From Xanthomonas sp. SI (GTDB lineage: Bacteria; Pseudomonadota; Gammaproteobacteria; Xanthomonadales; Xanthomonadaceae): 64,000 nucleotides of DNA. The notes beneath the pieces are model-generated. The model was not told where the DNA came from. It saw nothing but the letters and a program-made list of their open reading frames with translations, and did not search any database. Positions 23,977 through 27,545 of this stretch are shown here, piece by piece; the stretch's first letter is position 1, and the number at the start of each line of letters is the position of its first letter. The position numbers and the translations under genes were made by a program. The stretch lies in the NCBI RefSeq assembly GCF_014236855.1, contig NZ_CP051261.1, positions 4,774,001 through 4,838,000 of the forward strand, written 5' to 3'.

Positions 23977-24723
23977 TCAGCCCTGCCCGCGCAGCAGCGG
24001 GGCGATCTGGCGCATGCGGGTCTGCGTGGCCGGGCCGACCAGGGCGAAGGCGGTGTTTCCTTCGGACCAATATTGCGCGAGCAAGCGGCCGTCGCGACGC
24101 TCGCCATCGCCGAGGCGGGCGCTGCGCGGGCGCAGGTATAGGCCGATGCGCGCGCCGTCGGCGTCCTGGTAGACCAGCATCGCCGCGGCGCCCTCGGGGG
24201 TGGACAGCAGGCGACCGCCGCGCAGCGCGAAACCCTGCGCCTGCAGGTCCGGCACCGCGCCGGCGTCGCCGAAATGGGTGCGCAGCCAGCCCTGCAAGGC
24301 CACCCGTCGCGCCGGGTCGAATTCCAGCGGCTGCTCGCCGTCGGCGAACAGGCGATACGCGGCCACCGCGTCGGCCATCGGCAGGCGTTCGCCGCCGAGG
24401 CGGCTGTCGCGCAGCTGCCAGCCAAGCGTGATGCCCAGGCCCAGCGTCAGCACGCAGCTGGCCGCCATAGCGGCCAGCGTGCGGCGCCGCTGGCGCGTGC
24501 GGCGGCGCAGGGCCGGCATGGTCAATGCGGGATTGGCGGGCAGCGTCTCGGCACCGGCCCAGGCCGCGCGCAGCGCGTCGGCGTCCTGCTTCCAGCCGGC
24601 CACGCGCGCGGCGTGCTCAGGATTGGCCTGCAGCCATGCGGCGACCTGTGCGCGCCGCGCAGGGTCCAGGCGGCCATCGACATAGGCGTGCAGGGTTTCG
24701 TCGTCGGGGCGCAGCACGGTCAT
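23977..24723 (-). CDS. Anti-sigma factor for the adjacent ECF sigma
   Basis: A 248-residue protein. The N-terminus (DDETLHAYVDGRLDPARRAQVAAWLQANPEHAARV) is the typical anti-sigma helical domain. One membrane helix lies at about residues 82-103 (LAAMAASCVLTLGLGITLGW). The C-terminal 145 residues are periplasmic and probably sense the signal. Its ATG overlaps the TGA of the sigma gene by four bases, so the two are translationally coupled, as expected for a sigma/anti-sigma pair. Confidence 0.8.
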   Translation of the reverse strand: MTVLRPDDETLHAYVDGRLDPARRAQVAAWLQANPEHAARVAGWKQDADALRAAWAGAETLPANPALTMPALRRRTRQRRRTLAAMAASCVLTLGLGITLGWQLRDSRLGGERLPMADAVAAYRLFADGEQPLEFDPARRVALQGWLRTHFGDAGAVPDLQAQGFALRGGRLLSTPEGAAAMLVYQDADGARIGLYLRPRSARLGDGERRDGRLLAQYWSEGNTAFALVGPATQTRMRQIAPLLRGQG

Positions 24724-25232
24724 TTGAGCACTCGCAAGGCAGGGTTGCCGCTGCGGCCTTCGCCGAGCTGGCGCAGTTTCTCGCGGGCGCGCGACAAGCG
24801 CGACATCACCGTGCCGATCGGCAGGTCCAGCGCGGTGGCGGCGTCGCGATAGCTGAAGCCTTCGACGCTGACCAGCAACAGCAGCGCGCGCTGTTCGGCC
24901 GGCAGTTGCGCGAACGCAGCCAGCATCGCGCGGCCGTCGTGCACCTGTTCGGCGGACGGCGCCTGGGTCGGCTGCTGCGGCGCGAACAGGGCCAGCACCC
25001 GCTGCCAGCGCTGCGCGCGCCGGCGCGCGTCGACGAACTGCCGGTACACGATCGCGAACAGCCACGGCTGCAGCGCATCGGCGTCGCGGCGCGTGGACCA
25101 GCGCCGCAGCGCGCGTTCCAGCGCCGCCTGCACCAGGTCGTCGGCACTGGCCGCATCGCCGCTCAGCGACTGGGCGAAGCGTCGCAGTCGGGGCATCAGC
25201 GCACGCAGGGAATCGTCGTCGAGTTCGTCCAT
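24720..25232 (-). CDS. ECF-subfamily RNA polymerase sigma factor
   Basis: The product is 170 residues from the ATG at 25232 (MDELDDDSLRALMPRL). An in-frame GTG at 25271 would give 183, but it falls at the expected transcription start of the promoter described at 25278-25302, so I prefer the later start. Region 2 spans about 15-80 (RFAQSLSGDAASADDLVQAALERAL.., DALQPWLFAIVYRQFVDARRR) and region 4 spans about 110-160 (LPAEQRALLLLVSVEGFSYRDAATALDLPIGTVMSRLSRAREKL). It probably drives both its own operon and the divergent catalase-cytochrome b561 genes. The set resembles described ECF groups that are linked to SrpA-like catalases. Confidence 0.85.
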   Translation of the reverse strand: MDELDDDSLRALMPRLRRFAQSLSGDAASADDLVQAALERALRRWSTRRDADALQPWLFAIVYRQFVDARRRAQRWQRVLALFAPQQPTQAPSAEQVHDGRAMLAAFAQLPAEQRALLLLVSVEGFSYRDAATALDLPIGTVMSRLSRAREKLRQLGEGRSGNPALRVLK

Positions 25233-25277
25233 GGGCAGGGTCGCGTGCAGCGCTCGGGAAGGGGCAATCACAGGTAG

Positions 25278-25302
25278 GACGCACGGCGAGGCGGATTATT
25301 CC
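25278..25302 (-). promoter_or_regulatory. Predicted ECF promoter of the sigma/anti-sigma operon
   Basis: Reading on the minus strand, GGAATA (25302-25297) and CGTC (25281-25278) are separated by 15 bases and preceded by a G. The same two boxes and spacing occur in front of the catalase gene on the other strand. The arrangement fits autoregulation by the encoded sigma factor. Confidence 0.65.
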
Positions 25303-25423
25303 CTGGCCGGGGAGAGCCGCCTGGCTGGGCGGCGACACCCACGCGATTGTGCGGCCTGGCGGGCCGCAAGAAGCCACCGCAGGCGAAAAAGCGCAACGCA
25401 AACGCCGAACAGGCGTCGCCTCG

Positions 25424-25448
25424 GGAATAGAACGCGGCGCCGGACGTC
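25424..25448 (+). promoter_or_regulatory. Predicted ECF promoter of the catalase-cytochrome b561 operon
   Basis: GGAATA at 25424-25429 and CGTC at 25445-25448, 15 bases apart, again with a preceding G. The catalase ATG is 37 bases further on with AGGAG in between. It matches the promoter of the divergent sigma operon box for box. Confidence 0.65.
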
Positions 25449-25484
25449 TCACTCCCAATCGCCAACGCCACAGGAGTCGCCCCC

Positions 25485-26585
25485 ATGTCCCATCCCGCTC
25501 CCACCCCGCCGCCACGCCCGCGGCCCTGGCTGCCGCTGGCCGCCATCGCCGCCATCGCCGCCGCGCTCGCCGCCGCCTTCGCCTGGAGCGCGGGCTGGCT
25601 GGGCGGGCCGCAGCGGCTGACCGCGCAGCGCATGACCGATGCCATCGAAGCCGGCGGCCCGCCGCATCCGGGCTTCCGCCGCGCGCACAGCAAGGGCATG
25701 TGCGTGAGCGGGCATTTCGAAGGCAACGGCCAGGCCAGTGCGCTGTCCTCGGCGCGGGTGTTCGCCCAGGCCTCGGTGCCGGTGCTGGGACGACTGTCGA
25801 TCGGCGGCGGCGATCCGCACGGCGCCGATGCCACGGCGCGGGTGCGCAGCATGGCGCTGCTGCTGCGCAGCGACGACGGCCAGCAGTGGCGCACGGCGAT
25901 GAACAGCTTCCCGTTCTTCGTGGTGGCCACGCCGGAAGGCTTCATGGCACAGACCCTGGCCGCGCAGCCGGACCCGGCCACCGGCAAGCCGGACCCGGCG
26001 AAGATGGCCGCGTTCGCGCAACGCTATCCGGAAGCGAAGAAGTTCCAGCAGTGGGCCAAGACCGCGCCATGGTCCGACAGCTGGGCCAACACCCAGTACA
26101 ACGGGGTCAACAGCTTCCGCTTCATCGCCGCCGACGGCAGCAGCCGCTTCGTGCGCTGGTCGATGCGGCCGCAGACCGCGTTCAAGGAACTGTCCGCGGC
26201 GCAGCGCGCGCAGGCCGACGCCGACTTCCTCGGCGAGGATCTGCAGGCGCGGTTGGCGCAAGGACCGCTGCGCTGGGACTTGGTGCTGACTGTGGCCGCG
26301 CCCGGCGACCCGGTGAACGATCCATCGCAGCCGTGGCCGCAGGATCGGCAACAGATCGTCGCCGGCACGCTGGTGCTCGACCACGCCGAGCCGCAGGCCA
26401 CCGGCCCGTGCCGCGACCTGAACTACGACCCGTTGATCCTGCCGCGCGGCATCGCCGGTTCCGACGACCCGATCCTGGCCGCGCGCTCGGCGGTGTATTC
26501 GCACTCGTTCAACCGCCGCGAGCGCGAGATCGGCCGCGGCCAGGCGCCGGATGCGACCGGCCAGGCGCATGGGGGTGCGCAATGA
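25485..26585 (+). CDS. Catalase-family peroxidase (SrpA-like)
   Basis: The product is 366 residues, shorter than classical catalases (about 480 or more), as is usual for SrpA-type proteins. A membrane helix at 15-36 (WLPLAAIAAIAAALAAAFAWSAG) anchors or exports it. The distal haem pocket has H68 (RRAHSKGMCVSG) and N140 (NSFPFFV); the proximal haem ligand is Y338 in RSAVY. It likely reduces peroxides in the envelope, possibly with electrons from the cytochrome b561 encoded next. The downstream gene overlaps its stop by ATGA. Promoter and neighbours place it under the adjacent ECF sigma. Confidence 0.85.
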   Translation: MSHPAPTPPPRPRPWLPLAAIAAIAAALAAAFAWSAGWLGGPQRLTAQRMTDAIEAGGPPHPGFRRAHSKGMCVSGHFEGNGQASALSSARVFAQASVPVLGRLSIGGGDPHGADATARVRSMALLLRSDDGQQWRTAMNSFPFFVVATPEGFMAQTLAAQPDPATGKPDPAKMAAFAQRYPEAKKFQQWAKTAPWSDSWANTQYNGVNSFRFIAADGSSRFVRWSMRPQTAFKELSAAQRAQADADFLGEDLQARLAQGPLRWDLVLTVAAPGDPVNDPSQPWPQDRQQIVAGTLVLDHAEPQATGPCRDLNYDPLILPRGIAGSDDPILAARSAVYSHSFNRREREIGRGQAPDATGQAHGGAQ

Positions 26586-27251: not shown

Positions 27252-27545
27252 ACGCCCGTCGCGACTGAAGTCGCTCCCACAAAAAGGCGTGCGGCTTGCT
27301 AGCCCGGTGCACTGTAGGAGGGGCTTCAGCCCCGACAGATCGCCTGACGACGGTTCGGTTCCTGTCGCGGCTGAAGCCGCTCCTACAAAAAAGCGGGTGG
27401 CGTGCTGGCCAGGTGCTTCTGTAGGAGGGGCTTCAGCCCCGACAGACCGCCTGACGACGGTTCGGTTCCTGTCGCGGCTGAAGCCGCTCCTACAAAAAAA
27501 CGGGCGGCGTGCTGGCCCGGTGCTTCTGTAGGAGGGGCTTCGGAT
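27252..27545. repeat. Tandem array with 107-bp period
   Basis: GTAGGAGGGGCTTC occurs at 27314, 27421 and 27528, exactly 107 bp apart. Between copies lie an almost identical spacer with CGCCTGACGACGGTTCGG and an inverse unit CGGCTGAAGCCGCTCC. The last copy is cut short. A single related palindrome lies upstream near 27255. It fills the gap between two convergent genes. Confidence 0.85.

Follow-up and report, generated by a model that had tools for sequence, protein, structure and literature searches.

The gap between two divergent operons in the window, the whole 64,000-nucleotide stretch of Xanthomonas DNA analysed here, carries two copies of GGAATA-N15-CGTC, which probably act as the promoters of a single local sigma factor of the ECF26 type that would be held by its anti-sigma factor and freed by an envelope signal. 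The evidence is the boxes themselves, the order of the genes, their conservation and the joint loss of box and sigma gene, all directly visible in the sequences. The mechanism that we infer, covering promoter activity, sigma specificity, signal and electron path, would run as follows. From the shared gap the sigma factor would drive two operons, its own sigma/anti-sigma operon to the left and the peroxidase/cytochrome b561 operon to the right. In an unstressed cell it would be bound by the anti-sigma factor at the membrane, until a signal in the envelope, probably an oxidant or the product of its damage, acted on the periplasmic RseB-like part and released it. Once free, the sigma factor would activate both GGAATA-N15-CGTC promoters and so yield more of itself and more membrane-anchored heme peroxidase, to which cytochrome b561 would pass electrons from quinol. 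This would supply a likely regulator and promoter sequence for the peroxidase/cytochrome b561 module of plant-associated Xanthomonadaceae and of Burkholderiaceae.

Paired boxes in the gap between the operons

As a preliminary description of this DNA had claimed, GGAATA and CGTC lie exactly 15 bases apart on opposite strands of one gap (Table 1). The two copies point away from each other, at 25302-25278 (-) and 25424-25448 (+), with spacers of 15 nt at 25296-25282 and 25430-25444. GGAATA-N13..17-CGTC was matched twice in the 64 kb, both times by the gap pair, against a mean of 0.25 in shuffled sequence; at least two matches anywhere in the window, divergent placement in one gap not being demanded, arose in 2 of 100 shuffles. 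A pair of matches within a single gap exceeds chance expectation. A consensus scan of 25200-25500 found no sigma-70-like promoter.

Table 1. Features of the sigma/anti-sigma and peroxidase/cytochrome b561 locus (window coordinates).
Feature	Position	Strand	Basis or remark
Anti-sigma factor, 248 aa	23977..24723	-	overlaps sigma gene by 4 nt
ECF sigma factor, 170 aa, start ATG 25232	24720..25232	-	Pfam/NCBIfam; start by comparison with relatives
Predicted transcript start, sigma operon	25268..25270	-	8-10 nt after CGTC; inside GTG 25271-25269
-10 box CGTC, sigma promoter	25278..25281	-	sequence, conserved
-35 box GGAATA, sigma promoter	25297..25302	-	sequence, conserved
-35 box GGAATA, peroxidase promoter	25424..25429	+	sequence, conserved
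-10 box CGTC, peroxidase promoter	25445..25448	+	sequence, conserved
Predicted transcript start, peroxidase operon	25456..25458	+	same offset
AGGAG, likely ribosome-binding site of peroxidase	25471..25475	+	sequence
Catalase-fold heme peroxidase, 366 aa, N-terminal hydrophobic segment (by eye)	25485..26585	+	Pfam Catalase
Cytochrome b561, 195 aa	26582..27169	+	PF01292; overlaps peroxidase gene by 4 nt

A promoter profile was drawn from 40 loci. The -35 was fixed by the search pattern, which makes it invariant in this profile by design, the -10 was allowed as [CT]GT[CT], and one spacer base was removed from N16 sites. On each side the spacing was 15 in 36 of the 40 loci and 16 in the other 4. 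Among distinct sequences, the third base after CGTC was A in 92% (catalase side) and 78% (sigma side), the fourth was C in 84% and 81%, and the base right after GGAATA was A in 73% and 75%. Both window copies have a G directly 5′ of GGAATA, and the motif had first been given as GGGAATA; the GGAATA-N15-CGTC core of that pattern stands, whereas the leading G, found in about half of the distinct sequences (49% of 37 on the catalase side, 56% of 36 on the sigma side), is not part of it.

The sigma factor was found in 8 of 19 other genomes of the genus at 92-98% identity and in one genome of another genus at 68%. All 10 genomes with a sigma of at least 68% identity (the window, these eight and the one of another genus) carried both boxes. 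The preliminary description had named absence of the motif and its spacing from homologous loci as evidence against itself; both are conserved, in Xanthomonadaceae and beyond. Across box pairs the distance from -35 to -35 ranged from 24 to 725 nt, and since the boxes hold while this distance varies, they are best read as two separate promoters rather than a hairpin or a shared operator. An unbiased repeat search did return the box pair as the longest inverted repeat of the gap (26 nt, 73% complementary), as would be expected had the pair been kept as a hairpin or served as the operator of a classical regulator. Neither this nor a chance origin fits the variable distance, the spacers that differ while the boxes hold, the rarity of two chance matches in one gap or the fact that the box goes with the sigma gene, and we regard such explanations as highly improbable.

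A 53% identical sigma factor from another genus (G025, L011) had no such box in its short stretch; in the tree it grouped with a second Xanthomonas ECF sigma factor. A second ECF sigma factor, at 41-49% identity, was seen in other Xanthomonas genomes (L012-L017, L110, L111, L113).

Co-occurrence and co-loss of sigma gene and box

A catalase scan of the named genomes yielded 70 loci, with the sigma gene divergent from the catalase in 31 (the sigma fragment of L066 not counted); catalase and b561 genes without the sigma gene were found in many other Xanthomonas. In 26 genomes without a full adjacent sigma gene, many of them drafts, no full match to the sigma exceeded 49% identity. A strict box was defined as GGAATA, N15/16 and CGTC within 250 nt, and L074, L092 and L109 were set aside before counting (no upstream region, broken catalase frame, fragment). 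Adjacent sigma gene and strict catalase-side box agreed in 66 of the remaining 68 rows (the window and 67 related loci): 30 had both, 36 neither, one a sigma gene without a strict box (L070) and one a box with a sigma fragment (L066). L092, with an intact sigma gene and both boxes, would agree with this pattern. It is an X. phaseoli locus whose best catalase match begins only at residue 161.

Fisher's test over the 68 rows, which ignores kinship, gave p 5e-17. On the catalase tree each trait, sigma gene and box, changed at least 15 times, and of the eight contrasts lying on supported branches an average of 7.8 went in the same direction (sign test, median p 0.0078, range up to 0.07). Distantly related catalases make up some of the sigma-less rows, and these may never have been accompanied by the sigma factor.

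From the family of a Burkholderia genome, 30 loci were taken of the 53 catalase matches listed. A divergent sigma gene (55-56% identity) was present in nine, all with both boxes at N15; at the other 21 Burkholderiaceae catalase loci, which have no close sigma, the CGTC box was found in none. With both sets combined and the window included, the exact box preceded the peroxidase in 39 of 40 loci with a sigma gene (30/31 and 9/9) and was absent from 57 of 58 without one (36/37 and 21/21). Both boxes were present in all 40 sigma-bearing loci when the -10 was taken as [CT]GT[CT], strict CGTC being absent once on each side, in L070 (catalase side, CGTT) and in L091 (sigma side, TGTC).

Comparison of L045 (X. 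arboricola pv. juglandis) with the sigma-less L057, L058 and L073 showed both flanks in common and the sigma and anti-sigma genes gone from between them. A piece of the anti-sigma gene in L059 and a piece of the sigma gene in L066 point to loss of the pair rather than gain. In the sigma-less L055-L059, L061, L065 and L073 the gap could still be aligned: the catalase-side GGAATA was gone, the sigma-side -35 read TATTCG or TATGCG on the plus strand and not TATTCC, and the -10 boxes were often still present. L071 had lost the sigma gene and kept the sigma-side box, with one base changed in the catalase-side GGAATA; in L049, L051-L054 and L077 the gap no longer aligned well. These sigma-loss rows have many ancestors in common and are not independent. 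Two exceptions were L066, with an intact catalase-side box beside a broken sigma gene, and L070, in which the sigma gene is kept, the catalase-side -10 is CGTT and the best aligned part of the anti-sigma factor covers only residues 140-248.

The joint presence and joint loss of sigma gene and boxes support the earlier proposal that one sigma factor serves both operons. Another ECF sigma factor of the cell could instead read one or both boxes and leave the adjacent one with other targets, given that ECF26 sigmas cross-activate in S. meliloti (PMC6180224) and that the window's own genome holds eight matches to the sigma, itself included. The next best of these is 33% identical, and the boxes are gone where the sigma gene is gone while other ECF genes are still present, which makes such an assignment unlikely.

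Gene order varied outside these sets. On two Pantoea plasmids the catalase, b561, sigma and anti-sigma genes all point the same way and a single box lies before the catalase; on a Gluconobacter plasmid the arrangement is divergent and there are two boxes. To judge from these sequences, the number of boxes follows gene order. The annotated Gluconobacter catalase gene (L161:2243-3541, -) starts within the divergent sigma gene and spans both boxes; its true start probably lies further downstream. A Cupriavidus megaplasmid (L162) carries a 56% identical sigma gene and an anti-sigma gene with no catalase or b561 match in 7.5 kb, and no GGAATA-type box was found before the sigma gene; this pair may serve another target.

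A sister sigma lineage with TGTT as the -10

Larger stretches were examined for 12 of the 21 Burkholderiaceae loci without the CGTC box. Near the same catalase, nine (L209-L217) had a sigma gene at 39-43% identity, preceded in all nine by GGAATA-N15/16-TGTT, so that the -10 is changed and the -35 and spacing are kept. The same motif preceded the catalase in six of the seven loci with a divergent catalase, L216 being the exception. The other two, L209 and L210, have the catalase downstream of the sigma gene in the same direction. TGTT-type boxes also preceded catalases with no full sigma gene in the DNA examined, in L192/L218 and in L184, L186, L187, L195, L198 and L199, which were taken with short flanks.

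The sigma proteins of the CGTC and TGTT lineages differed consistently in 30 columns, six of them clustered at window residues 62-69. Region 2 of sigma factors, to which these residues would belong, contacts the -10 element. Y63, R64, Q65 and D68 were found in 37 to 41 of the 43 CGTC-lineage proteins; all nine TGTT-lineage proteins had H63, N64, N68 and Q69, and eight of them V65. None of the 43 has Q69. It does occur in RpoE6 and RpoE5 of S. meliloti, and the promoters of these two, as tabulated in PMC6180224, likewise have TT at that place.

A further protein that resembles an anti-sigma factor by eye was seen after its own GGAATA-N15-TGTT box at L212:2749-3522 (-) and L209:170-955 (+), and the TGTT lineage may have two anti-sigma factors for one sigma.

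We tentatively propose, at slightly less than even confidence, that the system is a portable ECF switch of several proteobacterial families, in which an RseB-like sensor, fused to the anti-sigma factor, controls a periplasmic peroxidase fed by quinol. Its promoter code would have split into CGTC and TGTT with matching region 2 changes from YRQ..D to HNV..NQ. If true, the split amounts to a natural -10 recoding experiment in which the target genes were held constant. The natural losses and the two lineages together make -10 recognition by the sigma factor testable with natural parts.

Transcript starts and the sigma start codon

The printed S. meliloti promoters of SMc01022, SMc01418, SMc04291, sorT, rpoE4 and SMa0142 end 8-10 nt past CGTC or its variant (PMC6180224; counted here). 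These printed sequences were taken to end at the mapped transcript start, and the same offset gives the predicted starts of both operons in Table 1. The sigma transcript had been placed near 25272; the region stands, and the S. meliloti offset shifts the exact place to 25268-25270. With this start, the first base of GTG 25271 would fall just before the transcript. A transcript starting at 25271 itself would revive this GTG as the sigma start.

Consistent with the earlier preference for ATG 25232 over GTG 25271, the ATG is aligned in most relatives and the stretch upstream is variable. Among the 28 other rows listed, 18 had ATG in its column and one had GTG; in most of the others a start codon lay two to four codons before it. 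The stretch 5′ of ATG 25232 varied in length and frame, with in-frame stops in four rows.

An in-frame ATG lies exactly 10 nt past CGTC in 11 Xanthomonas rows (L045, L046 and L069 among them), as part of a GTGATG 7-12 nt past CGTC in the sigma frame; the window has GTGATT. By sequence, leaderless initiation of the sigma factor is possible in those rows, as is the GTGATT being a trace of one.

The peroxidase/cytochrome b561 operon and the signal

The peroxidase carries the signature of a catalase-fold (SrpA-like) heme peroxidase, with the Pfam Catalase match and four residues invariant in 16 aligned rows: His68 and Asn140, which we take to be the distal heme residues of the catalase fold, and Arg334 and Tyr338, presumably the proximal ones. 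Its best PDB relative by sequence was 3e4w. The N-terminal hydrophobic segment suggests that it probably acts in the periplasm, and cytochrome b561 would be the electron donor of the predicted peroxidase. Repeated palindromic units of the type TGTAGGAGGGGCTTCAGCCCCGACAG, REP-like by eye, were noted 3′ of the cytochrome b561 gene at 27264-27540.

Exact GGGAATA-N15/16-CGTC sites elsewhere in 10 genomes were few and mostly not shared. By eye, four other GGAATA-type sites were common to the window's own genome and at least one of three close genomes, two of them within the coding frames of phytochrome and COX1. No further conserved target was found by these comparisons, the conserved sites being the two gap boxes. 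The locus had been called a peroxide regulon; the peroxidase/b561 target and the published H2O2 co-induction of a like pair agree with the first word, and "regulon", which would reach beyond the locus, is too large a word on present evidence.

That like pair is from B. cenocepacia J2315, in which the putative catalase gene BCAL3477 is divergent from the sigma gene BCAL3478 and both rise after H2O2 (PMC2830190). The likeness is one of gene order, annotation and length only: BCAL3478 is 522 nt by its coordinates (PMC2194791), which the ORFs of 519-522 nt in our nine Burkholderiaceae loci fit. By qPCR at 15, 30 and 60 min after H2O2, BCAL3477 rose 1.7-, 6.5- and 23.1-fold, and BCAL3478 was not significantly changed, then 5.5- and 16.6-fold higher; neither rose after 5 min of NaOCl (PMC2830190). 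The peak at 60 min came when only traces of H2O2 had been left since 15 min, and the authors take the catalase to be triggered indirectly and leave the role of the sigma factor open; the sections of PMC2830190 drawn on here name no promoter. A shared sigma factor of the kind described here is a possible explanation for the co-induction that they left open.

By analogy with this pair, peroxide stress is a plausible trigger of the window's sigma factor, and peroxide itself may not be the ligand. A peroxide signal would suit the recurrence of the peroxidase/b561 neighbour in Xanthomonadaceae, Burkholderiaceae, Pantoea and Gluconobacter (the first two sets having been found via the catalase) and the H2O2 induction of BCAL3477/BCAL3478 (PMC2830190). 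The promoters may also be real and the signal be sulfite, lipid peroxides or general envelope damage, with the peroxidase as one output. Sulfite is the known signal of the ECF26 sigmas RpoE1 and RpoE4 of S. meliloti (PMC3511301), and induction of BCAL3477 after H2O2 is late and apparently indirect (PMC2830190). In addition, the predicted periplasmic domain of the anti-sigma factor resembles RseB/MucB, and the anti-sigma alignment contained no invariant cysteine. The probability of a non-peroxide signal is in our estimate just short of one half.

Comparison with known systems

The anti-sigma factor has an N-terminal anti-sigma domain, one hydrophobic segment at about residues 83-102 (by eye) and a periplasmic C-terminal domain, an architecture that, downstream of the sigma gene, is that of ECF26 systems. 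It matched an EcfR1-like protein at 31% over residues 8-241 (E 4e-21), and the latter adjoins a sequence that differs from the mapped rpoE1 promoter by a single mismatch. The periplasmic part of about 120 residues has a predicted fold like the small domain of RseB/MucB. In E. coli RseA/RseB with RpoE, and in Pseudomonas MucA/MucB, RseB is a separate periplasmic protein with a large and a small domain; here, by predicted fold, the small-domain-like part is fused to the anti-sigma factor and the large domain is absent. The predicted RseB-like domain is thereby a candidate sensor of such anti-sigma factors.

In sequence the sigma factor was 42% identical to RpoE6, 39% to an RpoE1-like protein and 38% to RpoE5 (ECF15), and ECF26 and ECF15 references were not set apart in the sigma tree. 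PRK12511 was the best NCBIfam profile for both the sigma factor and the RpoE1-like protein, each below the cut-off. Two other groups were considered and rejected: ECF16 (SigF/EcfF), which needs a -35 of GTAAC, and ECF11 (RpoE/ChrR), which needs TGATC, the window boxes being GGAATA.

The presumably autoregulated sigma/anti-sigma operon recalls the autoregulated EcfF/OsrA operon of Bradyrhizobium japonicum (ECF16), which is peroxide-induced and for which the mapped EcfF transcript start likewise favoured a later start codon (PMC3420878). EcfF/OsrA differs in its promoter, GTAAC(g,a)-N14-15-(c,t)CG(t,a), in its cysteine-based anti-sigma factor and in its targets, which include MetSO reductases (PMC3420878).

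The box pair, with its 15-16 nt spacing, agrees with the ECF26 consensus of -35 GGAAT and -10 CGTC (PMC6527743); S. meliloti promoters of this type have GGAATA/GT and a 1-nt variation in spacing (PMC6180224). GGAAT(A) and CGTC or a near form at 15-16 nt are likewise described for S. meliloti RpoE1, RpoE4 and RpoE6 and for SigE of Starkeya novella (PMC3511301, PMC6180224, PMC6527743). By the same accounts, ECF26 systems encode the sigma factor and a membrane anti-sigma factor in one operon, several are autoregulated, RpoE6 also faces a target divergently, the RpoE1 and RpoE4 regulons are small, and RpoE3 and RpoE1 raise a YceJ-family (b-type) cytochrome gene. The targets named in the portions cited are sulfite oxidase, a serine protease and others, a catalase-fold peroxidase not being among them. 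Judged by its promoter and its anti-sigma factor, the sigma factor of the window would be a new, locally acting member of ECF26 with a catalase-fold peroxidase as its target.
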